NCBI GenBank assembly: GCA_017472925.1
Contig: JAFUNS010000013.1
Span: 1-48,112 of the forward strand
Direction: 5' to 3'
DNA: 48,112 nucleotides
Source of the DNA: Bacteroides sp.
GTDB lineage: Bacteria > Bacteroidota > Bacteroidia > Bacteroidales > Bacteroidaceae
Positions 1-14,285 of this stretch are shown here, in pieces. Below the pieces are notes generated by a model. The model searched no databases and was not told where the DNA came from. It saw nothing but the letters and a program-made list of their open reading frames with translations. Each line of letters opens with the position of its first letter. Position 1 is the stretch's first letter. The position numbers and the translations under genes were made by a program.

Positions 1-809
1 CCCTTTGATTTCTTCATAAAAATCCATGCCCGTAATAATAATCACTTGCTAACCCTCATCCACGACAAACTGAAACCTATAGGTCTCTCACATTCCAAAA
101 TAATCCTTTCTTTTCGTCAAATTTTCTATAAACAATTAACAATATTACCAATGAAAGAATAAAATATTTAAGTTTCACAAGCTCAACTTTCGTGTAGATA
201 AATGAAGTTAAAGGGAGATGTTGCTTCGCTTCTGGGGAGATAAAGGTCAATAGTCTTTCAAGTGACAAGCTACGAGTGACGAATTTTGTGCCTTGGGTAC
301 TTGTAGTTAGTAGTTGATAACTCGTAACTTTTACATTCGGCCTTTAACTCCATTTATCTCCTTCTATCTCCCTTTATCTCCATAAATTCTATTTGCGAAA
401 GTTGAGTAAGATATGTTTTTGGAATCCGTTACCTTCTTCTTCCTCTCGGTCTGTTCCTGTCTGCAACTATAGCGATAGCCGCCATCATGCATCTGCGTCT
501 ATAGCTCTGCTCATCTTCGTCTGGATTGCGCCCATCCCAACAAAGGTCGGATGTGTGTAGAAAATGTACTTGAACATTTCCCACCAAACAAATTGATACA
601 TCCGGTAAAAAATAGCTTATTTCGTAATTCTATACAGAGAGTTCATTCATAGTGATTGGTACGGGTGAAATCTCAGAATACATGTTTTCGTGCAGACCAT
701 ATGTGGTAACAATGCTAACTGGAAGATTAAACCTAACATCGCTCGTAAATAATCTTTATGGGCGATGTTTGTTTTACGGCTCTACTGACTTACTGACTAC
801 ACCTTGGTC
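1..809. other. Region without a confident gene (left edge)
   Basis: No convincing complete gene is seen in this AT-rich stretch. A plus-strand frame is open from base 1 to a stop at 160-162 (53 codons) and could be the tail of a gene lying to the left, but I do not recognise it. A 63-codon minus-strand frame at 77-268 has a hydrophobic middle but no family resemblance. Short words around 186-216 recur in inverted orientation at about 343-409. An 8-bp direct repeat (TACTGACT twice) lies near 783-799. The region may be decayed accessory DNA next to the VapE unit. Confidence 0.4.
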
Positions 810-912
810 TTATAGCAAAGTATCCTACATGCCTACATACCTACATATTGTATTGTATATCAATATAATGGATAATGTAGGATGGTTTATTTATCCTACA
901 TCTATCCTACAC
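810..912 (+). repeat. Left inverted repeat arm of the VapE unit
   Basis: This ~103-bp arm is the near-identical reverse complement of 3303-3404; the outer ~37 bp (from TTATAGCAAAG inward) match perfectly, with scattered differences further in. It contains TATCCTACA at 821-829, 892-900 and 903-911 and the inverse word TGTAGGATG at 876-884. The last two opposing words can pair as a hairpin just downstream of the VapE stop codon, so the arm could also act as its terminator. Confidence 0.8.
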
Positions 913-923
913 TAATGCGAAAA

Positions 924-3014
924 TCATTGTTTTTTCAAGTAATACAGACTCCCTTTAGCGACTCTTTTATGCACTAAATTCCATTTTTGGAGCGAACGAC
1001 CGAACATATTTACCTTGTTTATTGGCAATTTGTCTTTGCTCTTCGATTGAAGATAGTTAAATATGTCCATTACAGTCATCCATTCGCCATCCTGTTGGGA
1101 GGGAGAAGCTGCTTCAAAGTGGGCGAAGAACAGTTGTTCCAATGGACTCATCTGTTCGAATTCGCGGTTCGACTCCTTCAGCAAGGCTTCGTCCTTGTCG
1201 TCCAGCCAATATCTCTCACCGTGCAGCACTTCGTGCATGGCTTGGGCATAAAGCTGTTCGTAGTTGATGGTGATGTTGGTGTCGATGGGAGCCGTCACTT
1301 CCACGCAAATGTACCGGCGGTTACCCGATGTATCGGTCAGCACATCCTTCTGGTTGGTGGTGGCAATGAACGAAGCATATCGGCGCATCTCCCTTACCGC
1401 TGTACCATAAGGCTTTCGGAGGTTGGCAACCGGCTTTTGTAACAGATGTTTTAAATAGGCTTGTTGGGTGACGCTGATTTGGTCGAACTCGTCAAGGTTG
1501 ATTAGGAAGAAACGTCCTAAACAACGCTCCGCCTCCAACTTGCTGCTGAAGTTGAGGCTGTCCGTATAGCCGAAACGGAGTTCGGGTGGCAACAGGATAC
1601 GGCAGAAGGTAGATTTGCGGAATCCTTGTGCCCCAATGAGCACCGGTGTAGTGGCATTACCCCGTTGCTTGTCCATGCCCCGCCAATGTGCCACCATGCC
1701 GAGGAACCAACGGTGGAACAATTCCCGCCAATGTGCTTGTTGGGTAGGCACACAGTCGGCCAACGGACGGATGCGGTCTTTTCCATCCCATCGGCCTACA
1801 CTGAACAGGTATTCTTCCACAGGATTGTATTGAGGTACAAAACTGGAATTCAAGTAGCGGTCCACATCTCTGTCCCACACTTGAAGCCCTTCTTTCAGTG
1901 CATTGATAATAACCTCATTACGCACTCGTTTGTCTACGGGACGGAAGTAAAAGTTCACACTGTTGCGCTCACGATATTCAAGGTCGTCGAGCACGGTGTT
2001 GAAGCGGAATTCGTAACGGCGATGGATAAATTCTTCTAATCGTAAAGCCGTTTCCTGTTCCTTGGTCAGGACCGGGCGTTCGCCAAATCCCTTCATCTCG
2101 TCGTACAAGTTGTGGAATGTGCTTCTAATCAGTTGTTCGTCCTTATAATAATAGTAGTGCATCAGGGTGCGTCGCACGGCTTCTTCTTCGGGAATGCCCG
2201 CTTTGTAACATTCTTCACCAAGATGCACGAGTAACGGCATCAAATCGTCTCCACGCTTCCAGTTCTCTAAAGTGGAAAGCACTCGTTTCAGGGCTGCCTG
2301 AAACATTTGGCCGAAAGTTTGGTAGCTTTCGAAATTATGATTGACACGAAGCAACGGATTGGCCTCCGCCTGCTTCCGTTCGCGGAAAGTCTCGTGTCCG
2401 GGGAGCGACAAAGGTTGCTCCAAGCAGAAAGGAACCGCCTGGGGATTATAGTAAGGCCGTTCGTCTACCGACATACGGCAATGTTGTTGCAGAGTAGGTT
2501 CCTTCAAGGTGATGGAGAAAGGAAGCATGGGCTGGTAACATTTCACCGCCAACCGATAGGCATGGGCATGGAAAAGTAATGCTTGTTCTTCGGTTTGTGG
2601 AAGAGTGCCGTCGGGCAACGAGAACAGCACCCATATCTTCACGCTCTTTCCGCTGGAACCGGCAAAAGCCACCAAAGTCTGTGGAAGTAAGGAGGCCTGT
2701 TCCTTGATGTGTTCCACTTCCGCCCACCCTGAAAGACGGTTCACTTCGAGTTGTACGATACCGTTATAACTTTTGAATCTGTGTTCACCGTTGGAAGTGC
2801 GTTGGTAGGTTACCGCCGGATACACACGGGGAATGCGTCCGATGTTCACAAAGTGGCAATCGCTTCCCTCCAAACGAGGAAGTACATGGCGTAATTGCGA
2901 GATATATCCATCTTTGTTCTCTTTACTCAGTTTTTCCAACCATTTTTCTAATTTACAGACACTCCATTTCTCTTTAGCGCCATCTGTATCCTTCCTGATT
3001 AATGTAATATTCAT
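924..3014 (-). CDS. VirE_N/BT4734-like primase and VapE-type helicase protein
   Basis: A 696-residue protein that looks like a primase-helicase of Bacteroides accessory DNA. Residues about 50-200 resemble the VirE_N (BT4734-like) archaeo-eukaryotic primase-type domain. Residues about 395-600 are a VapE-type P-loop ATPase with Walker A GAQGFRKST (461-469), Walker B LINLDEFD (504-511), a sensor-1-like ATTNQ (551-555) and GNRRY (564-568) as a possible arginine finger. The last ~75 residues fit the DUF3874 C-terminal module. The first motif of the primase domain reads LEVNRL at about 89-94 where family members often carry an aspartate pair, so primase activity is uncertain. The gene stands alone; the HU-like protein and amidase often found beside such genes in Bacteroides are absent. 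Family assignment is firm, biological role is not. Confidence 0.85.
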   Translation of the reverse strand: MNITLIRKDTDGAKEKWSVCKLEKWLEKLSKENKDGYISQLRHVLPRLEGSDCHFVNIGRIPRVYPAVTYQRTSNGEHRFKSYNGIVQLEVNRLSGWAEVEHIKEQASLLPQTLVAFAGSSGKSVKIWVLFSLPDGTLPQTEEQALLFHAHAYRLAVKCYQPMLPFSITLKEPTLQQHCRMSVDERPYYNPQAVPFCLEQPLSLPGHETFRERKQAEANPLLRVNHNFESYQTFGQMFQAALKRVLSTLENWKRGDDLMPLLVHLGEECYKAGIPEEEAVRRTLMHYYYYKDEQLIRSTFHNLYDEMKGFGERPVLTKEQETALRLEEFIHRRYEFRFNTVLDDLEYRERNSVNFYFRPVDKRVRNEVIINALKEGLQVWDRDVDRYLNSSFVPQYNPVEEYLFSVGRWDGKDRIRPLADCVPTQQAHWRELFHRWFLGMVAHWRGMDKQRGNATTPVLIGAQGFRKSTFCRILLPPELRFGYTDSLNFSSKLEAERCLGRFFLINLDEFDQISVTQQAYLKHLLQKPVANLRKPYGTAVREMRRYASFIATTNQKDVLTDTSGNRRYICVEVTAPIDTNITINYEQLYAQAMHEVLHGERYWLDDKDEALLKESNREFEQMSPLEQLFFAHFEAASPSQQDGEWMTVMDIFNYLQSKSKDKLPINKVNMFGRSLQKWNLVHKRVAKGSLYYLKKQ

Positions 3015-3126
3015 TGCTCTGGTTTTCTATTATTCCTCAAAGATAGTAAATAAAATTCAATCATACAAATCAATGGAAATGTTTATGCTTATCCGTGCTT
3101 ATCCGCTTATGCTTTACCTGTCATTG

Positions 3127-3214
3127 CCAGCAGTGTGGCAGAACTCTGCCAACAGTGTTGCACAACTCTGCCACCAATATGGCACTATTCTGCCAACCTA
3201 TTGGCAGAACTGGC
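3127..3214 (-). repeat. Four tandem degenerate 22-bp iteron-like units
   Basis: Four directly abutting 22-bp units start at 3127, 3149, 3171 and 3193. Each begins CCA, and units 1-3 end in CTG. Units 1 and 2 differ at about four positions; units 3 and 4 are more diverged but keep the CCA..GGCA/GCA..CTG frame. They lie ~110 bp upstream of the VapE-type start codon. Iterons in this position bind replication initiators in many plasmids; here that is inference. The words GCTTATCCG also repeat at about 3087-3105. Confidence 0.65.
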
Positions 3215-3302
3215 GGAAGCATGTATATTCATGGATAATACGTAGTGTATAACGTTGTATCTTTTATGGTGTATTAATTTACCAATAACAGGAAACATAA
3301 CC

Positions 3303-3404
3303 GTGTAGGATAGTGTAGGATAAAAAAAGTATCCTACATTACCTATTAACTTGATATACAATACCGTATGTAGGTATGTAGGCATGTAGGATACTTTGCT
3401 ATAA
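3303..3404 (-). repeat. Right inverted repeat arm of the VapE unit
   Basis: Reverse-complement partner of 810-912. It carries TGTAGGATA at 3304-3312, 3314-3322 and 3385-3393 and the inverse TATCCTACA at 3330-3338; 3314-3322 and 3330-3338 form a perfect 9-bp stem with a 7-base loop. The right end falls about 130 bp before the nrnA start codon. Confidence 0.8.
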
Positions 3405-3486
3405 ATGTTTTGAAGAATGATACATGTTATGCTTCCCTTATAAGTCATTGAACATCAGTGTCAGTATCATTGTTTTCCTTCATTTG

Positions 3487-3518
3487 TTAGAATTATCCGG
3501 AGATTATTCGTAACTTTG
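3487..3518 (+). promoter_or_regulatory. Predicted nrnA promoter
   Basis: The Bacteroidota -7 element TAACTTTG is at 3511-3518; TTAG at 3487-3490 stands 20 bp upstream where TTTG is expected. Leader about 20 nt. Confidence 0.55.
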
Positions 3519-3540
3519 CCATTCAAATAAATGAGGAATT

Positions 3541-4581
3541 ATGTTGACTAAAGTAATAGCACAAGCAAATGTAGACCATGCTGAAAAGTGGTTTGAAAAA
3601 GCAGAAAAGATAGTAATTGTAAGCCATGTGTCGCCCGATGGCGATGCCATAGGCTCTTCGTTGGGGTTATATCACTTCCTGCAGACGCAAGAAAAGACCG
3701 TGAATGTGATTGTGCCCAACCAGTTCCCCGACTTCTTGAAATGGATGCCTGGGGCCAAGGATGTGATTATTTATGACCGTTATAAGGATTTTGCCGATCG
3801 CCTTATCCGCGAAGCTGATGTGATTTGTTGCCTCGACTTCAATGAGTTGAAGCGCATTGACACTATGGAAGAAGCGGTTAGGAATGCTTCTGCGCGCAAG
3901 ATGCTGGTTGACCACCATCTCAATCCGGGTAATTTTGCGGGTATCACCATCTCGCACCCTGACATCTCGTCGACTTCCGAATTGGTGTTCCGCTTGATAT
4001 GCCGATTGGGTAATTTTGATGACATCACTCGCGAAGGGGCGGAATGTATCTATACCGGTATGATGACCGATACAGGTGGATTCACTTACAATTCCAACAA
4101 TCGTGAAATCTATTACATCATCAGCGAGTTGCTTTCAAAGGGTATTGACAAGGACCAAATCTACCGGAATACATTCAATACTCACACCGAAGGCCGTTTG
4201 CGCTTGATGGGCTATGTGCTTTATGAAAAGATGGAAATCTATCGTGATTTCAATTCGGCACTTATTTGGCTCACCAAGGAAGACCAACGCAAGTTTCAAT
4301 ACAGGAAGGGGGATACTGAGGGGTTTGTAAATATGCCGCTTTCCATGCAGGGTATCCGTTTCTCTTGTTTCCTTCGTGAAGATACCGAAAAGGACATGAT
4401 TAAGGTATCACTCCGTTCGGTGGGCGATTTCCCATGTAACAAGGTAGCTTCCGATTTCTTTGGTGGAGGCGGACATTTGAACGCATCAGGAGGGGAAGTA
4501 TACGGAACCATGGACGAAGCTATTTCTTTGTTCAAGCAAGCTTTAATCAAGTACGAAGACCAATTATTAGGCAAAAAATAG
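3541..4581 (+). CDS. nrnA: DHH/DHHA1 phosphoesterase, NrnA-type oligoribonuclease/pAp phosphatase
   Basis: A 346-residue cytoplasmic DHH-family phosphoesterase, the usual length for NrnA. It is expected to degrade short RNA oligonucleotides and to dephosphorylate 3'-phosphoadenosine 5'-phosphate. Visible metal-binding motifs are SHVSPDGDAIGSS (D33, D35), LDFN (D99) and DHH (124-126). The C-terminal DHHA1 domain has the glycine-rich GGGGHLNASGG at 308-318. It starts just beyond the VapE unit with its own promoter and is followed after 83 bp by a DUF4827 lipoprotein gene. NrnA is inferred from the domain pair; the single-stranded DNA exonuclease RecJ is excluded by the short length. Confidence 0.9.
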   Translation: MLTKVIAQANVDHAEKWFEKAEKIVIVSHVSPDGDAIGSSLGLYHFLQTQEKTVNVIVPNQFPDFLKWMPGAKDVIIYDRYKDFADRLIREADVICCLDFNELKRIDTMEEAVRNASARKMLVDHHLNPGNFAGITISHPDISSTSELVFRLICRLGNFDDITREGAECIYTGMMTDTGGFTYNSNNREIYYIISELLSKGIDKDQIYRNTFNTHTEGRLRLMGYVLYEKMEIYRDFNSALIWLTKEDQRKFQYRKGDTEGFVNMPLSMQGIRFSCFLREDTEKDMIKVSLRSVGDFPCNKVASDFFGGGGHLNASGGEVYGTMDEAISLFKQALIKYEDQLLGKK

Positions 4582-4633
4582 TTATTTTAGTATAATACGC
4601 TGGAAACAATGGTGATAATTGAAGATGATTTAT

Positions 4634-4641
4634 TACTTTTG
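4634..4641 (+). promoter_or_regulatory. Predicted -7 element for the DUF4827 gene
   Basis: TACTTTTG matches TAnnTTTG and lies 23 bp before the start codon. No good -33 element is seen. Confidence 0.45.
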
Positions 4642-4664
4642 TCCCCGATTTTAAAGAAAACAAG

Positions 4665-5300
4665 ATGAAGAAACTTGGTATATTAATGATAATTGCATTC
4701 GGATTGGGACTTGCTTTTCAGGCTTGCGACAATCATAAGACGTATGCGGAGCTGAAGGAAGAAGAACGCGATGCCATCCGTCGATTTATTGAAGTAAGGG
4801 ACATTAAAGTGATTGACGAAGACCAGTTCTTTGAACAGGATACTACTACCAATGTACAACAGAATGAATATGTACTCTTCGAAGAAAGTGGTGTATATAT
4901 GCAGGTAATTGAACGTGGTGGCGGTGAATTGTTGGAAGACGGACGTTACGAAATTCTGGTTCGTTATGAAGAAGAAGAGATAACCGAAGATGGTACAACC
5001 GATACTTTGTCGCTCAATACATGGGTGAACTATTATCCGCATCCGGATGAACTGATGATTACCAAATCGGGCAAGTCTTTGTCGGGTAGCTTGAACACTG
5101 CTGGTGCTATGTACAGCACACATGGAAGTACATCAGCCCCTTCGGCATGGATGTTGGTGTTCGATTATATTAAGCCCGGACGTAAGTTCTCCGACCGTTC
5201 GCACATCCGTTTGATTGTGCCTCATAGTGAAGGTACCATTACGGCTTCTCGAAGTGTAACTCCAGCATATTACGACATTAAATATCAATTGGCAAGATGA
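4665..5300 (+). CDS. DUF4827 family lipoprotein
   Basis: A 211-residue predicted lipoprotein. A hydrophobic signal peptide ends in a lipobox with cysteine at residue 20 (AFQAC), so the mature protein is probably membrane-anchored in the periplasm or outer membrane. The body resembles the Bacteroidales DUF4827 family, thought to have an FKBP-like fold. No catalytic residues can be assigned. The stop codon overlaps the start of the GlmM-type gene as ATGA (5297-5300), so the two are translationally coupled. Function unknown. Confidence 0.75.
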   Translation: MKKLGILMIIAFGLGLAFQACDNHKTYAELKEEERDAIRRFIEVRDIKVIDEDQFFEQDTTTNVQQNEYVLFEESGVYMQVIERGGGELLEDGRYEILVRYEEEEITEDGTTDTLSLNTWVNYYPHPDELMITKSGKSLSGSLNTAGAMYSTHGSTSAPSAWMLVFDYIKPGRKFSDRSHIRLIVPHSEGTITASRSVTPAYYDIKYQLAR

Positions 5301-6685
5301 CATTAATCAAATCTATATCGGGTATCCGTGGTACCATTGGCGGTAGTGCCGGCCAAGGTTTAAATCCATTGGATATCGTCAAGTTTACATCAGCGTATGC
5401 TACGTTGATTCGTAAGACTACAACTGTAAACAGCAACAAGATAGTAGTAGGTCGTGATGCTCGTATCTCGGGCGAAATGGTGAAGAATGTAGTGTGTGGA
5501 ACACTCATGGGTATGGGCTTCGATGTAGTGAACATTGGTCTGGCTTCTACTCCTACAACCGAGTTGGCCGTAACCATGGAAGGCGCTTGTGGAGGTATTA
5601 TTCTAACCGCCAGCCATAACCCCAAGCAATGGAATGCGTTGAAGTTGCTGAACGAAAAGGGTGAATTCCTGAATGCAGAAGAAGGTAACGAAGTGCTTCG
5701 TATTGCCGAGGCCGAAGCTTTTGAGTATGCAGATATCGACCATTTGGGTTCTTATCGCGAAGATAATACTTACAACGAAAAGCATATAGATAGCGTATTG
5801 GCCTTGAAATTGGTTGATGTAGAGGCTATTCGTAAGGCCAACTTCAAAGTGGCTATCGATTGCGTGAATTCTGTGGGGGGTGTTGTGTTGCCTCAATTGC
5901 TTGAACGTCTGGGTGTAGCGAAAGTGGAAAAGCTTTATTGCGAACCTACCGGCCATTTCCAACATAATCCGGAGCCTTTGGAAAAGAACTTGGGCGACAT
6001 AATGGGACTGATGGCCAAGGGTGGTTATGATGTAGCTTTTGTGGTTGACCCGGATGTGGACCGCTTGGCCATGATTTGTGAGGATGGTACCATGTATGGC
6101 GAAGAATATACGTTGGTCACTGTAGCCGATTATGTATTGAAGCATACACCAGGCAATACCGTTTCTAACCTCAGTTCTACTCGTGCACTTCGTGATGTTA
6201 CCCGTCAGTATGGATGTACATACAATGCTGCAGCCGTTGGCGAAGTGAATGTTGTAACCAAAATGAAGGAAACCGGTGCGGTTATTGGTGGTGAAGGTAA
6301 TGGTGGAGTTATCTATCCCGAAAGCCATTACGGACGCGATGCATTGGTGGGTATCGCCTTGTTCTTGAGCCATTTGGCGCATGAAGGTAAAAAGGTGAGC
6401 GAACTTCGTGCTTCTTATCCGCCTTATTTCATTGCAAAGAATCGCATTGACTTGACTCCTGAAACCGACGTGGATGCTATCCTTGCTAAGGTGAAGGAAT
6501 TGTATAAGGATGAAGAGATAAACGATATAGATGGTGTGAAGATTGATTTCCCCGACAAGTGGGTACACCTTCGTAAAAGTAATACAGAGCCTATCATTCG
6601 TGTCTATTCAGAGGCTTCGACCATGGAAGCAGCCGATGAAATAGGACAGAAGGTGATGGATGTTGTCTATAGTTTGGCGAAATAA
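5297..6685 (+). CDS. glmM: Phosphoglucosamine mutase (GlmM-type phosphohexomutase)
   Basis: A 462-residue alpha-D-phosphohexomutase, expected to convert glucosamine-6-phosphate to glucosamine-1-phosphate for UDP-GlcNAc, peptidoglycan and lipid A synthesis in the cytosol. The phosphoserine loop TASHNPKQWN has the catalytic Ser106; the metal loop is DPDVDR near 248-253; the sugar loop reads GGEGNGG near 330; the phosphate loop is RKSNTEPIIRV near 427. GEGNGG and RKSNTEP recall the archaeal-type GlmM branch more than the E. coli GlmM signatures, so phosphomannomutase/phosphoglucomutase activity is an alternative. It overlaps the DUF4827 gene by 4 bp and converges with the TPR regulator, leaving one base between the stops. 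Confidence 0.85.
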   Translation: MTLIKSISGIRGTIGGSAGQGLNPLDIVKFTSAYATLIRKTTTVNSNKIVVGRDARISGEMVKNVVCGTLMGMGFDVVNIGLASTPTTELAVTMEGACGGIILTASHNPKQWNALKLLNEKGEFLNAEEGNEVLRIAEAEAFEYADIDHLGSYREDNTYNEKHIDSVLALKLVDVEAIRKANFKVAIDCVNSVGGVVLPQLLERLGVAKVEKLYCEPTGHFQHNPEPLEKNLGDIMGLMAKGGYDVAFVVDPDVDRLAMICEDGTMYGEEYTLVTVADYVLKHTPGNTVSNLSSTRALRDVTRQYGCTYNAAAVGEVNVVTKMKETGAVIGGEGNGGVIYPESHYGRDALVGIALFLSHLAHEGKKVSELRASYPPYFIAKNRIDLTPETDVDAILAKVKELYKDEEINDIDGVKIDFPDKWVHLRKSNTEPIIRVYSEASTMEAADEIGQKVMDVVYSLAK

Positions 6686-6686
6686 A

Positions 6687-8276
6687 TCAAACAGGGGAAC
6701 CTAATCTTTTTAGATATTGGCTCAGACTTTCTTCTTTGGGAAGTCTGAGCTTCTCTTTTAAGCGCAATTTCTTTCTACTGATAGAGTTGGTACTGATGCA
6801 ATAGATATCCGCCAAGCTTTGTAAACTGAGATTGATTTTGATGAGGCAGCAGAAATTAATATCTTTTTCTGATAATGTGGGGCAAGTGTCTTTGAGATTT
6901 TTAATAAAATTGGGATATGAACTATCCAACATCAGACGTATTTCTGACCAATCGGTTTCGGATAAGTGTATGTGCTTTCCTTCTTCGATTGATTGGTTAT
7001 GCTCAAGTATTGGAAGTTTTTCTGCTACTTTCATACGCTTGAATAATTCTTCTCGCATCAATGCATCTTTTTCACGTAAAACAGCTTCTTTCTCACGCAG
7101 TAAACTCAGTTCTTCTTGTTGCTTTAAAAGTTGATTGTCTAATAGGAATTGTTTGTGTTCCAATTCCCGTTTCCTATGAAACCAAAGAATAATGAAAAAT
7201 CCGATTATAATAACAACAAGTAAGGCCAATCCTAAAATAGTGATTATATGTCTTTGCCTTTCAACTTTCAGTTCATTTAATAGGTTTTGCTGTTTGAGGG
7301 ATTCAAATTCTGCTCTCTGTTCCTTATAGTATATATCTCTATGCTGGTGATTTGTAGCTTGGATGGCTTTGCTGTGTGCTTGTATGGCGGGTGCAATGGC
7401 ATTTTTTTGGAGATACATATTGCCAATGCGTGTAAAGGCTTGTGAAGCAATGAATGTATTTTCACTTTCAGAAGCTATTTTATAGTGCTTCATAGCAGAA
7501 TCCGGACAATGCATTTCCATCCACAAGTCACCTTGCATTAAATTGATGTATGGAATATCTTTTCGCTTCATCCGTGCTCTGAGCTTTTTTAAATAATCCC
7601 ATGCTTTTTGATAGTTCTTTTCATAAGCTAATAGGTCAAGGATATGGTTGCTATATAGAAAAATATCTTTACCCTCTGCCATCTCTATGGATTTCATATG
7701 ATAATGTATGGCCGAATCTTTTTGTCCGATAGAATGGTATATCACTCCTAATTGCTTGTAGATATGATATAGGGGAAGCTTATTGGTCAGCTCGGCTTCT
7801 TTCAGATAGTGAATGGCGGAATCGTTTTCTGTCAACGTTGTTTTGATGAGTTGTTTATAGAAATACCATCTGGAGGAATCTTTATGAGTAATGGCGTAGA
7901 CATTCATTTGGTTGGCGAGAGAATCGGCCGAAATGGGATTTTCTAATTTCTGATAATGATAAAGCAGTTCAAAACTGCGGGTGTTGAAAGCACGTGAATG
8001 TCCAAGTGGATATGCTTTCTTGAGTATAGTCATAAGGGAATCTAATTCCTTGGAGGTAAAAGACATCAGGTATGAAATATCTGTACCCATGCGGAGATAA
8101 TGGTAATTGTTCTGTTCGGAAGGGGTGAGTGAGGTATAGTCTATCCGAATCAGATGGTATAACATGCTATCATAATGAATACCGAGCAAGTCTTCTGCCC
8201 TGTTCAAGTGTGTCCGACTTTGGTTGCAACTTGCAATCAATAAACTTATGATAGAAAAAAACAATAATCTCCGCAT
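6687..8276 (-). CDS. Membrane-anchored TPR protein with C-terminal HTH-like domain
   Basis: Annotated from ATG 8276, giving 529 residues; the longer frame would need a TTG start that coincides with the predicted -33 element. The N-terminus is a signal peptide with a lipobox-like ASC. Several tetratricopeptide-like repeats follow (two-helix units such as YHIYKQLGVIYHSIGQKDSA). Then come one transmembrane segment (ITILGLALLVVIIIGFFIIL), a coiled coil rich in LLREKEAVLREKDAL, and a C-terminal helix-turn-helix-like region (LSLQSLADIYCISTNSISRKK). This layout matches the Bacteroidales family of periplasmic-TPR regulators whose cytoplasmic end resembles LuxR/SpoIIE-type effectors. It follows a propeller lipoprotein gene on the same strand and may sense it; that pairing is inference. 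DNA binding is unproven. Confidence 0.75.
   Translation of the reverse strand: MRRLLFFSIISLLIASCNQSRTHLNRAEDLLGIHYDSMLYHLIRIDYTSLTPSEQNNYHYLRMGTDISYLMSFTSKELDSLMTILKKAYPLGHSRAFNTRSFELLYHYQKLENPISADSLANQMNVYAITHKDSSRWYFYKQLIKTTLTENDSAIHYLKEAELTNKLPLYHIYKQLGVIYHSIGQKDSAIHYHMKSIEMAEGKDIFLYSNHILDLLAYEKNYQKAWDYLKKLRARMKRKDIPYINLMQGDLWMEMHCPDSAMKHYKIASESENTFIASQAFTRIGNMYLQKNAIAPAIQAHSKAIQATNHQHRDIYYKEQRAEFESLKQQNLLNELKVERQRHIITILGLALLVVIIIGFFIILWFHRKRELEHKQFLLDNQLLKQQEELSLLREKEAVLREKDALMREELFKRMKVAEKLPILEHNQSIEEGKHIHLSETDWSEIRLMLDSSYPNFIKNLKDTCPTLSEKDINFCCLIKINLSLQSLADIYCISTNSISRKKLRLKEKLRLPKEESLSQYLKRLGSPV
6720..6758 (+). terminator. Intrinsic terminator for glmM inside the convergent gene
   Basis: GCTCAGACTT (6720-6729) pairs perfectly with AAGTCTGAGC (6741-6750) over an 11-base loop, followed on the plus strand by TTCTCTTTT. 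The hairpin lies within the last codons of the opposite-strand TPR/HTH gene. Confidence 0.65.
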
Positions 8277-8281
8277 GGGTG

Positions 8282-8312
8282 CAAACTTACTACTTTTAAC
8301 CGATTTATGCAA
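8282..8312 (-). promoter_or_regulatory. Promoter for the TPR/HTH gene, predicted leaderless
   Basis: Minus strand: TTG (8310-8312), exactly 20 bp, TAAGTTTG (8282-8289), then only five bases before ATG 8276. The expected transcription start therefore falls at or next to the A of the start codon. Confidence 0.7.
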
Positions 8313-8320
8313 TGTGTGTA

Positions 8321-9553
8321 TTATAAATCGGTTTTAAGTTTAGCGTATAAGATATAATTGTTATGGTCTTCATCTATTTGCTTTTGTAGGGCTTTTAATT
8401 GTTCTTCTTGTTCTTTGGTCAGTTCATTGTTCTTTAGAGCCTTTTCTATTTGTTCCAACAAAATACTTGGCTCAAGGTTGACTGTGTAATATCCGTCTGT
8501 ACAGGCATAAGGGAAATAAGCTATTTCTAAATTACCCAGATAATCGTTGAAGATTCGGACATAATTCCCTTTATTGCTCTTCTTGTCTACTATGATGAAT
8601 TGTTGCTCTTCGGTTTCGTAAAACCCTTCTGCTATTTGTTTAGGTTGAGTTACCATACACATATAATGTCCGGGGAGTTCCATATAATCGTGTAAAATTG
8701 GATCGTTCTTGAATTCTGCGGTAAAGCGCGGAATCAGTTCTCCTTTGTCCATGTCAAAATGGTATAATGTATCCTTCCGAAGTTCCCAGAAAGTAAAGAT
8801 GTTGAACCCGAAATGATTTTCCGAACGTGATAAGTTGATTTCGTTGCTGAAGTCGGGTTTGATTTTTAAATAGTCAGCATAAGGTTCGTGTATAAAATTA
8901 CCTTCCATATCTTGTATCCAGGTTACGGTAGGCTGATTTTTAAAAGGAAGCAGGGCTACAGCCACTTGATTTTTCTCGGTATTTACTTTGAAAACCCCTT
9001 TGGGTACAACTAAATTTTCGTATTTTTTATTTAGTGGGATGCTTCTTATAAAATTCCCTTTCAGATTATAGGTTAGTATTGCTTTTGCATTCCAAGGAAG
9101 TAGATAAACGAAACCGCCATCTTCATCTATTTGTGCGCAATAAATCAGATTATATTCTCCGGGACCTTGCCCTACGCTTCCTATATTTGCGATATAAGTC
9201 CCATCTTTTTTGAATAACTTGCAGGGAATACTATGAGAACCGGTCGAACGGGTTACTAATATGTAGTTGTCGGATACGTATACTTTTGAGTTACCCACTA
9301 AAGCTTCATCTCTGTTGTCTAAAGGTACGATTTGTAGTTTCTCTGCGAGATAGCTGAGAGGTATATTTACGGTGTCATTCACTAATCCTAATTTTAGGAC
9401 GGTTACATCATGTCCGTTAACGTCGATTGTTTGAGCTATGACTGCTTGATTGTCTAAGCAAAACTTGACTGATGAAAACTTGTCTGATGCTTTGTTGCTA
9501 CATGCTACAAAAATGGTTGCTAATACAATGGAAAGGTAACTTCTTGCTTTCAT
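8321..9553 (-). CDS. Six-bladed beta-propeller lipoprotein (BF3164-like)
   Basis: Start set at ATG 9553, giving 410 residues that begin MKARSYLSIVLATIFVACSN, a typical lipoprotein signal with lipobox VAC. The upstream extension of the open frame lies across the promoter and is not translated. The body shows repeated beta-strand blade-like segments (for example KLFKKDGTYIANIGSVGQGPGEYN) typical of the Bacteroidales six-bladed propeller family, which are surface or periplasmic proteins of largely unknown ligand. The C-terminus has a charged helix. It is transcribed just ahead of the TPR/HTH regulator, 44 bp away, which suggests a sensing pair. Confidence 0.75.
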   Translation of the reverse strand: MKARSYLSIVLATIFVACSNKASDKFSSVKFCLDNQAVIAQTIDVNGHDVTVLKLGLVNDTVNIPLSYLAEKLQIVPLDNRDEALVGNSKVYVSDNYILVTRSTGSHSIPCKLFKKDGTYIANIGSVGQGPGEYNLIYCAQIDEDGGFVYLLPWNAKAILTYNLKGNFIRSIPLNKKYENLVVPKGVFKVNTEKNQVAVALLPFKNQPTVTWIQDMEGNFIHEPYADYLKIKPDFSNEINLSRSENHFGFNIFTFWELRKDTLYHFDMDKGELIPRFTAEFKNDPILHDYMELPGHYMCMVTQPKQIAEGFYETEEQQFIIVDKKSNKGNYVRIFNDYLGNLEIAYFPYACTDGYYTVNLEPSILLEQIEKALKNNELTKEQEEQLKALQKQIDEDHNNYILYAKLKTDL

Positions 9554-9598
9554 ATTAATACTTATTATAATTATGTTATTGGTATGCTCATATAGTTG

Positions 9599-9629
9599 CA
9601 AAAGTATAGTAAATAATAGAAAGCACCAA
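9599..9629 (-). promoter_or_regulatory. Promoter for the propeller lipoprotein gene
   Basis: Minus strand: TTG (9627-9629), 20 bp, TACTTTTG (9599-9606), a textbook Bacteroidota promoter. Leader about 40 nt. Confidence 0.75.
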
Positions 9630-9719
9630 GAATATGATATGGACAAATATAATTTGTTTTGTTTGTTAAATGGTTGAAAAAGAATTGATTAGTTGTTTGT
9701 TGTGGTGGACAAGTCTTTT

Positions 9720-10850
9720 TTATTCTACCCATAATAGGTCGCTCATGATATTGTCTGAAATAAAAATACCTTTAGGCGTAAGTCTTAAAATTTCATTTTC
9801 TTTTGTCAAGGTACATCGTTCAAGATGCGGTTTAGCCATACGTAGACAATAATGGTACAAACCATCACCATATTTTATATGTAGTTGGGAGAGGGGGACT
9901 CCCCAGCAAGTTCGTAAGCGGGTAATGATGAAATCATTGTATTGGGTGTATATGTCCAATTCCTCTATCTCATAGTCAGGCTTATTGTTGGTGATTCCAT
10001 TTATATAAGCATCCAATGAAGCTACATTCCATTGGCGTGAAACTCCGTTGTAGGAATGGGCAGAAGGTCCGCAACCCATGTATTTCTTTCCTGTCCAATA
10101 GGAAGAATTATGTTGTGAATGAAGTCCTGGTAGACAGAAATTGGATATTTCATAGTGTTGGTAGCCTGCATAAGTCAGCTGATTAATGAGAGTCTTAAAC
10201 ATGGATAGGCTCAAGTCTTCATCGGCTTCACTTACTTGATGTTGCTCGCGGAGTTTCCAAAGAGCGGTCCCTTCTTCATAAATAAGATGATAGGCAGAGA
10301 TGTGCTCGGGATGTAATTCGATGGCTTGCTTTATATCGTTTTCCCATTGTTGGAGAGTCTCACCAGGCAATCCATACATCAAATCAATGCTGATGTTTTC
10401 AAAACCTGCTTCCCGAAGTAGATTGTAGGCTTCGATGGCTTGACGGGCGGTATGCCTGCGATGGAGAACTTTTAAAGTATCTTCATGGAAAGTCTGTATG
10501 CCCATGCTTATCCGATTGATGGGTAGTGCACGGAGGGCATGTACGTAATCCGTTGTTATATCATCGGGATTGACTTCAAGGGTGATTTCGGCATTCTTCT
10601 TTACGTTATATACCTTATATATATAGGCGAAGATTGTTTCCAGTTCGGCTGGTGAAAGTTGCGAAGGGGTTCCACCTCCTAAGTATATGGTTTCAACCTC
10701 TTCTCCATCCAAGTAGCCTTTTCGAAGTTCCAGTTCCTTACAGAGGGCTTGGACATAGCGCGACTTCTCTTCATTTCGGGTAGTGGAAAAGAAGTCGCAA
10801 TAGATGCACCTGCGTTTGCAAAAAGGAATATGTAGATAAATACCGGCCAT
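9720..10850 (-). CDS. hemW: HemW-type radical SAM heme chaperone
   Basis: A 376-residue radical SAM protein of the HemN/HemW family. With the start at ATG 10850 it begins MAGIYLHIPFCKRRCIYCDF; the upstream ATG at 10868 would overlap the preceding gene and is less likely. Cys11, Cys15 and Cys18 form the CxxxCxxC [4Fe-4S] motif, followed by the SAM-contacting GGGTPS. The short N-terminus lacks the extra cysteine region of true coproporphyrinogen dehydrogenase HemN, so heme delivery (HemW) is preferred over heme synthesis. It follows the LOG-family gene by 4 bp and is probably cotranscribed with it. Confidence 0.88.
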   Translation of the reverse strand: MAGIYLHIPFCKRRCIYCDFFSTTRNEEKSRYVQALCKELELRKGYLDGEEVETIYLGGGTPSQLSPAELETIFAYIYKVYNVKKNAEITLEVNPDDITTDYVHALRALPINRISMGIQTFHEDTLKVLHRRHTARQAIEAYNLLREAGFENISIDLMYGLPGETLQQWENDIKQAIELHPEHISAYHLIYEEGTALWKLREQHQVSEADEDLSLSMFKTLINQLTYAGYQHYEISNFCLPGLHSQHNSSYWTGKKYMGCGPSAHSYNGVSRQWNVASLDAYINGITNNKPDYEIEELDIYTQYNDFIITRLRTCWGVPLSQLHIKYGDGLYHYCLRMAKPHLERCTLTKENEILRLTPKGIFISDNIMSDLLWVE

Positions 10851-10854
10851 AAAA

Positions 10855-11910
10855 TCAGTTTTCTGCAAAACGAAGGATGGTTTCGGTTATTTCGCTTGTG
10901 GTATCGGATAGGGAAAGAAGCAGGTTCTTGTATTTGCCTTTGGCTACCAAATGTTGCATAAGGGGCCATACGGGCATTTCGTTTGTCCAATATTGGGTGC
11001 CCATAAAAATCATGGGGCTGGCATATCCAAAACTCAAGTAATGATTCTGAACGGCTTCCTGGAAGATTTCTTGCATGGTGCCGGCGCTTCCTGGCGAATA
11101 AATGATTCCACCTTTGGCAATGGTAAGAATACTGTCTTCGCGGATACTGTTGTCGAAATACTTGGCAATGTGTGTGGCAAATGGAGTGGCGGGCTCATGA
11201 CCATAGAGCCAAGTGGGGACACCTAAACTGACAAATGATCCATGAGGATATTTCTTCATGACTTGAAAAGCGGTTTCTAACCAAAGTCGGTCTTTGAATG
11301 AAGGCGCTTCTTGAAGCATATGGAGGGCGTCGTTTACATCACTTTCGCTACGTCCGGCCATCCAAGCTCCCAAATGGGTGGCTTCCATGGCACCAGGGCC
11401 TCCTCCGCTTACCATAATGCATCCCTTTTCGGTGAGTTCCTTACTTACAAGAACTATCTGCCGGTAGGATTCTTCGGTGCGCAATAAGCCATGTCCACCC
11501 ATGATGCCTACCACTTTGCGCTCATCAAATTGCGCAAGAAAATCGTTCATGGCATCGGTCATGGAATGATCATGTAGGGTACGTCCTAATGTTTCCTTGA
11601 TGTCATTGGCCTGTTTACCTTTCTCAAGATAATGATGGTATACCTTATAATCATAAGTATAGGAATAAGAGCCTGGTTTTCCTAATTGGTAGCCTTCGTA
11701 CAAATCTTCTGCAGAATAAAGCGTTCCACGGAATAGATTAAAAGGAACCTGCATGGATGGGGCTTCAATCAGTTCTTTCAGAGCTACAATCGCATCCGAT
11801 TGTATTTCCTGTGCCTTCAAGGCCGTTTTTTTCTTTTTCTTGGGAATTCCTATATTTGCTTTTCGGGCTTGATAGGCTTCGTATTGTTTCTCGAGGTAAT
11901 TATCTGCCAT
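10855..11910 (-). CDS. LOG family nucleotide 5'-monophosphate nucleosidase-like protein
   Basis: Start at ATG 11910, giving 351 residues beginning MADNYLEKQYEAYQARK. A Rossmann-type LOG domain occupies the C-terminal two thirds, with GIMGGHGLLR, VSGGGPGAMEA and the PGGxGTxxE-like SPGSAGTMQEIFQE. LOG proteins hydrolyse the N-glycosidic bond of nucleoside 5'-monophosphates; bacterial members include PpnN. The usual second glycine of PGGxGT is serine here (PGSAGT), so activity on a standard substrate is uncertain. The lysine-rich N-terminal region is not part of the catalytic fold. Upstream of hemW in a likely two-gene operon. Confidence 0.8.
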   Translation of the reverse strand: MADNYLEKQYEAYQARKANIGIPKKKKKTALKAQEIQSDAIVALKELIEAPSMQVPFNLFRGTLYSAEDLYEGYQLGKPGSYSYTYDYKVYHHYLEKGKQANDIKETLGRTLHDHSMTDAMNDFLAQFDERKVVGIMGGHGLLRTEESYRQIVLVSKELTEKGCIMVSGGGPGAMEATHLGAWMAGRSESDVNDALHMLQEAPSFKDRLWLETAFQVMKKYPHGSFVSLGVPTWLYGHEPATPFATHIAKYFDNSIREDSILTIAKGGIIYSPGSAGTMQEIFQEAVQNHYLSFGYASPMIFMGTQYWTNEMPVWPLMQHLVAKGKYKNLLLSLSDTTSEITETILRFAEN

Positions 11911-12033
11911 TGTAATCGTTATAAAATATTTTCGACAAGTGCGAAGATACAAAAAACTCTTCTTATATAATATATAGGATAAGAATTTGTTTGTTTCTGT
12001 TAAAAAACATAGTTTAGTAACATGTAGTTTTCG

Positions 12034-12064
12034 TTGGCTGTTCGGACAAAAATTTCTAATTTGC
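12034..12064 (+). promoter_or_regulatory. Promoter of the EF-G paralogue gene
   Basis: TTG (12034-12036), 20 bp, TAATTTGC (12057-12064), a slightly shortened -7 element. The leader is about 60 nt. In B. thetaiotaomicron the homologous gene is activated by the CRP-like regulator Cur; I could not identify a Cur site here. Confidence 0.6.
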
Positions 12065-12128
12065 GCTCCGTTATTTCAAGAGATATGAAAAGCATATCCT
12101 GACAGTTAATAATTAAACCTTAGATATC

Positions 12129-14285
12129 ATGAAAGTATATCAAACTAACGAAATTAAGAACATTGCCCTTCTTGGTAATGATGGAGCAGGTAAAACCACC
12201 CTCACAGAAGCGTTGCTCTATGAGAGTGGTATTATAAAACGTCGTGGTAGAATTACGGCTAAGAATACAGTGAGTGACTATTTCCCTGTAGAACAAGAGT
12301 ATGGATATTCAGTTTTCTCTACTGTATACCATGTAGAATGGAACAATAAGAAACTTAATATCATTGACTGTCCGGGTAGTGATGACTTTGTAGGAGCAGC
12401 TATGACCGCACTCAATGTAACAGATACTGCCATCCTTTTGTTGAATGGTCAATATGGTCCTGAAGTAGGTACACAAAACCACTTCCGCTATACAGAAAAA
12501 TTGGGTAAGCCGGTTATTTTCCTTGTGAATCAGCTTGACCATGAAAAATGTGATTATGACAATATTTTGGAACAGTTGACCAGTATTTATGGCTCAAAGG
12601 TAGTTCCTGTACAATATCCTCTTCAAACAGGTCCTAACTTCAATTCTCTGATCGACGTATTGTTGATGAAGAAGTATTCTTGGGGTCCTGATGGTGGTGC
12701 GCCAACAATCGAAGATATTCCGGCATCGGAAATGGACAAGGCCATGGAAATGCACAAGGCTTTGGTAGAAGCTGCTGCTGAACATGATGAAACCTTGATG
12801 GAAAAGTTCTTCGAAACAGAATCATTGACCGAAGACGAAATGCGTGAAGGTATCCGCAAGGGATTGGCTGCAAGAGGTATGTTCCCTGTATTCTGTGTAT
12901 GTGCAGGTAAGGATATGGGTGTTCGTCGTTTGATGGAATTCTTGGGTAATGTTGTACCGTTTGTAGACGAAATGCCACCGGTACACAACACTCGTGGTGA
13001 AGTGGTTGAACCTAAGGCTGACGGACCTACTTCATTGTTCTTCTTCAAGACAGCAGTAGAACCACACATTGGTGGTGTACAATACTTTAAGGTGATGAGC
13101 GGTAAGGTTCATGAAGGTGATGATTTGGCTAATGCAGATCGTGGCTCTAAAGAACGTATGGCTCAGTTGTTTGTATGCGCAGGTGCCAATCGTATTCCTG
13201 TAGAAGAATTGCGCGCAGGTGATATAGGTTGTACTGTTAAGTTGAAGGATGTCAAGACTGGTAATACATTGAATGGTAAGGATTGTGACAATCGTTTCAA
13301 TTTCATCAAATATCCTAATCCGAAATATTCACGTGCAATCAAACCGGTGAACGAAGCTGACGTAGAAAAGATGATGTCTATTCTTAACCGTATGCGTGAA
13401 GAAGATCCTACATGGGTAGTGGAACAAAGCAAGGAATTGAAGCAGACTATCGTTTATGGTCAGGGTGAATTCCATCTTCGTACATTGAAATGGCGTTTGG
13501 AAAATAATGAAAAACTCATGATCAAGTATGAAGAACCGAAGATTCCTTATCGTGAAACCATTACTAAGGCTGCACGTGCCGATTATCGTCATAAGAAACA
13601 ATCGGGTGGTGCCGGACAATTTGGTGAAGTACATTTGATTGTAGAACCATATTATGAAGGTATGCCAATGCCTGATACTTATCGCTTCAACGGTCAGGAA
13701 TTCAAGATGAACGTTAAGGGACAAGAAGAAATTCCATTGGAATGGGGCGGTAAGTTGGTATTTATCAATAGTGTTGTGGGTGGTGCCATCGACGCTCGTT
13801 TTATGCCGGCTATCTTGAAGGGTATCATGAGCCGTATGGAACAAGGCCCGTTGACAGGTTCTTATGCCCGTGATGTACGTGTTATCGTATACGATGGTAA
13901 GATGCACCCGGTAGACTCTAATGAAATCTCGTTCATGTTGGCAGGACGTAATGCTTTCAGTGAAGCGTTCAAGAATGCAGGACCGAAGATTTTGGAACCA
14001 ATTTATGATGTGGAAGTATTCGTGCCAAGTGACAAGATGGGTGATGTAATGAGTGATCTCCAAGGTCGTCGTGGTATGATTATGGGTATGAGCAGTGAAA
14101 GCGGTTATGAAAAGTTGGTTGCAAAGGTACCTTTGAAAGAAATGTCCAACTATTCTACTTCACTTAGCTCATTGACTGGTGGTCGTGCTTCATTTATCAT
14201 GAAATTCGCTAGCTACGAACTCGTACCGGGTGATGTACAAGATAAGTTGATGAAGGAATTCGAAGCTTCTCAAGAAGAAGAATAA
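12129..14285 (+). CDS. fusA2: EF-G paralogue (EF-G2/FusA2 type) with altered GTPase centre
   Basis: A 718-residue protein with all five EF-G domains, expected to bind the ribosome and promote translocation. The P-loop GNDGAGKT (16-23) is intact. The G3 motif reads DCPGSDDF (80-87), placing Ser84 where canonical EF-G has the catalytic histidine of DTPGH. The switch I region reads EYGYSVFS (57-64) where canonical EF-G has ERGITITS, and G4 reads NQLD (134-137) for NKxD. These changes match the B. thetaiotaomicron EF-G2 paralogue, reported to support translation without GTP hydrolysis and to be needed in the gut; equivalence is inferred. It lies directly upstream of rprX-rprY and the rpsF operon. 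A ribosomal-protection tetracycline protein is a less likely alternative. Confidence 0.85.
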   Translation: MKVYQTNEIKNIALLGNDGAGKTTLTEALLYESGIIKRRGRITAKNTVSDYFPVEQEYGYSVFSTVYHVEWNNKKLNIIDCPGSDDFVGAAMTALNVTDTAILLLNGQYGPEVGTQNHFRYTEKLGKPVIFLVNQLDHEKCDYDNILEQLTSIYGSKVVPVQYPLQTGPNFNSLIDVLLMKKYSWGPDGGAPTIEDIPASEMDKAMEMHKALVEAAAEHDETLMEKFFETESLTEDEMREGIRKGLAARGMFPVFCVCAGKDMGVRRLMEFLGNVVPFVDEMPPVHNTRGEVVEPKADGPTSLFFFKTAVEPHIGGVQYFKVMSGKVHEGDDLANADRGSKERMAQLFVCAGANRIPVEELRAGDIGCTVKLKDVKTGNTLNGKDCDNRFNFIKYPNPKYSRAIKPVNEADVEKMMSILNRMREEDPTWVVEQSKELKQTIVYGQGEFHLRTLKWRLENNEKLMIKYEEPKIPYRETITKAARADYRHKKQSGGAGQFGEVHLIVEPYYEGMPMPDTYRFNGQEFKMNVKGQEEIPLEWGGKLVFINSVVGGAIDARFMPAILKGIMSRMEQGPLTGSYARDVRVIVYDGKMHPVDSNEISFMLAGRNAFSEAFKNAGPKILEPIYDVEVFVPSDKMGDVMSDLQGRRGMIMGMSSESGYEKLVAKVPLKEMSNYSTSLSSLTGGRASFIMKFASYELVPGDVQDKLMKEFEASQEEE

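Follow-up and report, generated by a model that had tools for sequence, protein, structure and literature searches.

An element family of vapE genes framed by inverted iteron modules, with dispersed gene-less derivatives, in Bacteroidales

A 2.6-kb unit in a Bacteroides sp. genome, made up of a single vapE gene, an upstream array of 22-bp palindromic units and two inverted clusters of iterons, represents a family of elements whose layout recurs around diverse vapE genes and whose gene-less derivatives are dispersed. The family is real and bears strong signs of mobility, and it is neither a PICI nor a MITE transposon in the full sense. The unit is probably a transposable element reduced to initiator plus origin, with MITE-like derivatives, and the data suggest that a replication starter without a visible cut-and-paste enzyme underlies the spread of the gene-less copies. 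If true, this would tie the spread of small intergenic repeats within the genomes of gut Bacteroidales to replication initiators. The window referred to below is the whole stretch analysed (48,112 nucleotides of contig JAFUNS010000013.1), and the unit occupies its positions 810-3404.

Anatomy of the unit and its VapE protein

The window unit (Table 1) contains the inverted repeats, the four 22-bp units and the one large gene that a sequence-only reading had described. The inverted repeat is 103 nt long with gaps (810-912 versus 3404-3303, 90.3%, E=5e-29 by self-BLAST) and 91 nt long without (810-900 versus 3314-3404, 90% complementary), and the DNA on the two sides of vapE aligns with a local score of 82, beyond all of 100 dinucleotide shuffles (maximum 18). 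The tandem array, whose 22-bp units are listed at 3125-3211, has a z of 8.1, against a maximum of 3.5 among 20 dinucleotide shuffles. The repeats had been taken for simple ends, but each is an iteron cluster (module A) around a 28-bp AT-rich spacer, with three outward tandem iterons (ATGTAGG) on one side and, on the other, some three inner iterons whose orientation is mixed. The spacers are 71-82% AT, compared with 56% for positions 1-6000 of the window, and the two arms match in iteron type.

Table 1. Features of the unit, in window coordinates
Feature	Position	Strand	Remark
Terminal module A, downstream side of vapE	810..912	-	starts ~12 nt past the vapE stop codon
Outer tandem iterons of downstream module A	~824-846		
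AT-rich spacer of downstream module A	847-874		
Inner iterons of downstream module A	~875-912		
vapE, 696 aa	924..3014	-	PF08800 + PF05272 + PF12990; proposed origin-binding initiator helicase
Module B, 4 tandem 22-bp palindromic units (TGCCA-n6-TGGCA type)	about 3121..3215	.	upstream of vapE
Terminal module A, upstream side, inverted copy	3303..3404	+	
Inner iterons of upstream module A	~3303-3339		
AT-rich spacer of upstream module A	3340-3367		
Outer tandem iterons of upstream module A	~3368-3393		

The absence of a visible transposase or integrase, also part of that reading, holds as well. The sole gene of the unit is vapE, and the remaining ORFs of at least 60 aa in 810-3404 are short and mostly overlap it. 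The ORF list contains no integrase and no packaging or phage-interference gene; no transposase was found in this list or in a family-library search of the VapE protein, in which no recombinase or nuclease domain was found either. Rfam gives zero matches at E<=0.1 across window positions 600-3600, and no circular form or circular junction of the unit was found in this analysis. In the left flank, window positions 196-381 carry short inverted and tandem repeats of the CTCCATTTATCTCC type (19 nt at 95%).

The protein combines a BT4734-like N-terminal domain (BT4734-like_N, PF08800), a VapE-like ATPase domain (PF05272) and a C-terminal DUF3874 domain (PF12990). The Walker A lysine and the Walker B N-x-D-E are conserved without exception in the 21 homologues aligned, with changes at neighbouring residues in L100 (KTR instead of KST) and L191 (DEYD instead of DEFD). 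BT4734-like proteins are counted among the archaeo-eukaryotic primase (AEP) families in the excerpts of PMC5862659, which give the AEP catalytic motifs as hhhDhD/E, sxH and hD/E. In the same alignment, the first acid of motif I is present in 14/21 homologues and both acids in 1/21, the H of motif II is replaced by K in 21/21, and the motif III D is kept in 21/21. The 'primase' of the sequence-only reading thus finds no support, and primase activity is doubtful. AEP primases are the subject of relevant work by Iyer (2005). The nearest solved relative is 7pds, entitled 'Similar to D. nodosus vapE' / 'PriRep1 with dsDNA' (E=2e-14 by profile, 3e-9 by single sequence), and this match and the PF05272 domain together establish homology with the Rep initiator helicases of PICIs and SaPIs. 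The AlphaFold model, built from 6 sequences, is poor (mean pLDDT 58), so its fold matches, weak at E=2e-3, serve as leads only. PADLOC returns a single match, in which the N-terminal domain is hit by the model of a CRISPR-associated PrimPol.

Recurrence of the layout and dispersal of gene-less copies

VapE homologues at E<=1e-120 occur in 43/399 genomes of the bacterial family, with up to two per genome. The 48 vapE loci, drawn from this and further searches, were reduced to 44 by removing L173 (no ORF), L097 and L101 (duplicates) and L187 (92% identical to L168, a relative rather than a duplicate); several of the remaining loci are closely related and hence non-independent. An upstream four-unit array with a period of 20-24, scoring more than 0.5 above the shuffle maximum, is present in 31/43 loci, mostly with a 22-bp period and in some cases non-palindromic. 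An inverted repeat spanning the gene exceeds all 100 shuffles in 18/43 loci, three of them by <=3 points, and is not significant in the other 25, some of which have little flank (L188, with little upstream DNA, is left out of both counts). Just 3' of the gene, a recurrent 7-mer is found in 25/43 loci at <=13/200 mononucleotide shuffles, and in 17/43 at <=2/200, while 18/43 lack a clear iteron cluster there (L099 left out).

The only neighbours that recur in at least 3 of the 44 loci are HU-HIG (14) and DUF6078 (7), named from the members tested; no integrase, transposase, packaging, capsid or interference family does so. By position, such neighbours lie inside the arms in L192, L160, L185 and L190, and outside in L194, L195, L171 and L172. 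Clades of the HU superfamily are the subject of relevant work by Burroughs (2017). Similar cores are found in different surroundings in two pairs of loci, L165/L203 (96% over 3.3 kb) and L166/L167 (94% over 2.7 kb). In the first pair homology ends within the A modules, and in the second ~330 bp are common beyond the A module of L167, so moved DNA does not always stop at the ends of the arms. The pair L184/L185, considered as a precise excision, was rejected: on the downstream side one of the two has a complete A module and the other a partial deletion of it, and within the upstream module of L184 lies what looks by eye like an IS-like insertion of ~1.45 kb. Two B. fragilis genomes (L098 and L099, 8082-8085) are 97% identical until 3 bp past the vapE stop, where the alignment ends.

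In the own genome of the window (2.8 Mb in 79 contigs, ~80% complete), BLAST with the window unit as query identifies arm and array sequences without the gene at C21:24403-24728, C21:142109-142413, C18:2710-3003, C43:34152-35926 and C43:95762-95866, the last a lone arm. The two C21 copies (L123 and L124) can be aligned from one end to the other at 83%; the alignment of the C18 copy is poorer. The sequence-only reading held that repeats found alone, unrelated to vapE genes, would refute a single mobile system; gene-less repeats do occur, but L123 and L124 retain the last ~35-50 bp of vapE beside the array, and are therefore internal-deletion derivatives. At C43:34152-35926 (L125, 5153-6927), DUF6078 and zeta-toxin-like genes lie between array B and arm A, perhaps a vapE-less variant with cargo.

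A second vapE on C21, 71% identical to that of the window, has the same layout with other iterons (GTGTAAGATG type) and another array (GTACTGC type). It likewise has gene-less copies; both full-length close vapE paralogs of this genome have them. Arrays of the GTACTGC type are also seen at L117, L119, L120 and L121. At L120 the array adjoins, by eye, a third arm type (TGTGTAGGTA), which flanks vapE in another genome (G006, L038), so that arms and arrays of different types can be recombined. By eye, the gene-less A or B modules at L118 and L119 (C13 and C64) have SusC-like genes nearby, together with an ORF resembling a tyrosine recombinase. A further vapE, on C19, begins at the contig end, at the same codon where an ~11.5-kb element interrupts two different vapE genes of P. 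vulgatus just past the Walker A codons, as if it held the same repeat. The interrupting element is seen at L129 (G010:C1:2961000-2979000, 2274-13829) and also at L130 and L010; its copies are 95-96% identical across ~7 kb, and a large serine recombinase is encoded in the copy that was tested.

Modules of the window type, searched at E<=1e-8, are present in 1/61 genomes of the genus, the own genome only. This distribution speaks against A and B being ordinary host REP/BIME-like regulatory or structural repeats that vapE merely adjoins. Lone intergenic repeats, some of them beside other repeats, are what such a reading would predict, but the repeat type tracks the vapE paralog, and gene-less copies retain vapE 3' ends, making it highly improbable.

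With L161 as query, dispersed copies consisting of an arm, the last ~350 bp of vapE and the array are found in P. sartorii (G019) and P. vulgatus (G010). The vapE-to-array junction is identical in 9/13 loci examined, and five of these nine also have the array-to-second-arm junction in common; of the remaining four, L232 and L233 lie at the L161 locus and are derivatives with other deletions. As in MITE families, the dispersed non-autonomous copies have termini in common with a gene-bearing one: the same left terminus is found in 15/21 gene-less loci (13 in G019, 2 in G010; a few with mismatches or as fragments) and in the vapE-bearing P. sartorii copy L196. L242 has the terminus of the other arm, many gene-less copies have one A module only, and two pairs of gene-less copies occupy orthologous sites in P. 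sartorii and P. vulgatus. Several P. sartorii copies (L221, L222, L226, L234, L238, L224 and L235) adjoin another intergenic repeat of 50-180 bp, beyond which the flanks mostly differ. The adjoining repeat can be read either as an insertion preference or as an outer part of the element, whose outer limits may therefore lie further out.

One internal deletion common to nine loci points to amplification after the deletion. It would not be expected if the units were decayed PICI-like satellites or prophages that lost integrase and packaging genes, with scattered A and B modules as leftovers of past integrations. Such an origin is suggested by the PICI-like origin anatomy, by the weaker homologues common in phages (462 records at E<=1e-5, with an identity below 60% in 460) and by the AEP affinity of BT4734-like proteins and the prediction, in the excerpts of PMC5862659, that VirE/PF05272 ATPases are helicases of mobile elements. 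We regard it as distinctly unlikely, given also that no integrase, packaging or capsid family recurs in at least 3 of the 44 vapE loci, that 8/462 phage records cover 80% of the protein, that the six best fetched are unannotated faecal contigs (one, L205, 97% identical to the chromosomal L160), and that two scans of IMG/VR with narrow peptide patterns gave just 4 and 6 loci. A plasmid home was also rejected: 74 plasmid records match VapE, 6 of them over 80% of the protein, and the three examined look chromosomal by gene content in our own reading.

One site is occupied in two species, with the element absent in two relatives. This is the intergenic site of L230 in P. vulgatus (~1.0-1.2 kb), which is also occupied in P. 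sartorii (G019); 205 bp are found instead in G298, where the flanks are 98% identical, and 103 bp in G419. Five further genomes gave no readable site. Inspected by eye, copies that have both ends show no evident target-site duplication, and the element-less L230 sites are too diverged to align. An unoccupied counterpart, in P. sartorii, of the site of the P. dorei-like unit L161 was rejected: the left flank is present there without the unit, but the right flank is not colinear. Together, the layout in differing contexts, the dispersed gene-less derivatives and the occupied and unoccupied site uphold, at the level of the family, the earlier view of one mobile unit.

At the window itself, the unit does lie beside nrnA (nrnA-like ORF start at 3541), as first described, but a clean insertion there was rejected. 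Among 13 relatives' loci listed, 11 have a comEC-like ORF directly upstream of nrnA in our own reading (the exceptions are L070, at a contig edge, and L081, with an amylase-like ORF); in the own genome comEC lies on another contig, C7, followed by unrelated DNA. The nrnA loci of 29 relatives, covered up to ~1.5 kb upstream, contain no match to the unit. The nrnA site of the window is rearranged.

Iteron specificity and a candidate mechanism

Iteron types differ between elements. Given the ATPase domain, A-iteron similarity tracks DUF3874 identity (partial r 0.29, 0/1000 permutations) in 23 loci picked for clear iterons from the 25 passing, with a crude similarity measure; a set of 21 loci gave a partial r of 0.31 (0/1000 permutations). 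A-iteron similarity did not follow the other VapE regions tested, and array B correlates weakly with every region of the protein (raw rho 0.11-0.13), with no domain-specific signal.

Module A fits the E. coli PICI descriptions in the excerpts of PMC6092414, leading us to propose firing of the terminal modules by VapE, followed by reinsertion of the extra copies. We infer that VapE brings about both replication and movement. In this proposal, which the covariation supports in its first steps, the C-terminal DUF3874 domain would bind the A-module iterons at the ends of the unit, where VapE would load as a self-loading helicase and open the AT-rich spacer, as SaPI/PICI Rep does at origins. Firing of the terminal origins would over-replicate the unit, or any DNA with A and B in cis, so that gene-less copies could be moved in trans, and extra copies would then be inserted elsewhere. 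The 22-bp palindrome array B may be a second cis site, for control or loading, and a host or helper recombinase might cut and join the ends. The 'origin-carrying' of the sequence-only reading accordingly stays a putative attribute, drawn from the anatomy, the PICI/SaPI analogy and the iteron covariation.

Alternatively, a helper enzyme, a recombinase or transposase whose gene lies elsewhere (in the host, a phage or an ICE), may move any DNA with these termini, VapE being a passenger or only raising template copy number. The common left terminus calls for a cutting and joining enzyme, and none is seen in the unit; the gene-less copies outnumber the single matching P. sartorii vapE locus seen (C121). 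One shared helper would not, however, require iteron types that vary and track the C-terminal domain of the paralog, and no transposase family recurs in at least 3 of the 44 loci; we consider this alternative rather unlikely. The preferred reading, an initiator acting on its own terminal origins, has a further form that we put forward tentatively: the family may be a class of transposable elements categorically distinct from others. An initiator helicase without its own recombinase would then be the sole protein needed, its binding sites would make up the inverted ends, iteron specificity would differ from lineage to lineage, and non-autonomous copies would parasitise the matching initiator. 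The family provides natural initiator/iteron pairs of differing specificity within one genome, and the preferred reading would, if true, assign a function to vapE genes of the 'BT4734/BF3469' type.

Comparison with known systems

BT4734/BF3469 family proteins (NCBI name) are products of the same gene, and their public records show HU or DUF6078 neighbours, but annotate single genes and no element with ends. The titles and abstract starts found by searches of open-licence PubMed Central contain no description of this element family, and a prior description is possible.

The family looks like a PICI replication module in its build and like a transposon with MITEs in its spread. In the excerpts of PMC6092414 and PMC7581432, PICI/SaPI origins have iterons flanking an AT-rich region next to the Rep gene, and the C-terminal domain of Rep is implicated in iteron choice. 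The window unit shares with these modules an AAA+ ATPase of the VapE kind and, comparing anatomy alone, iterons on both sides of an AT-rich region beside the gene. By contrast, it is 2.6 kb long and lacks integrase, packaging and interference genes, its origin-like module is present twice, as inverted arms, and its gene-less derivatives are dispersed. Like families of MITEs and autonomous transposons, it has gene-bearing and internally deleted copies that are dispersed and have one common terminus; unlike them, it has no transposase and no target-site duplication was seen, and its termini are iteron clusters. The SCCmec proteins Cch2/Cch offer a further parallel, being described in the excerpts of PMC7581432 as possible self-loading helicases whose C-terminal domain binds repeats directly downstream of the gene, although SCC elements, according to the same excerpts, encode their own recombinase and further operon genes.
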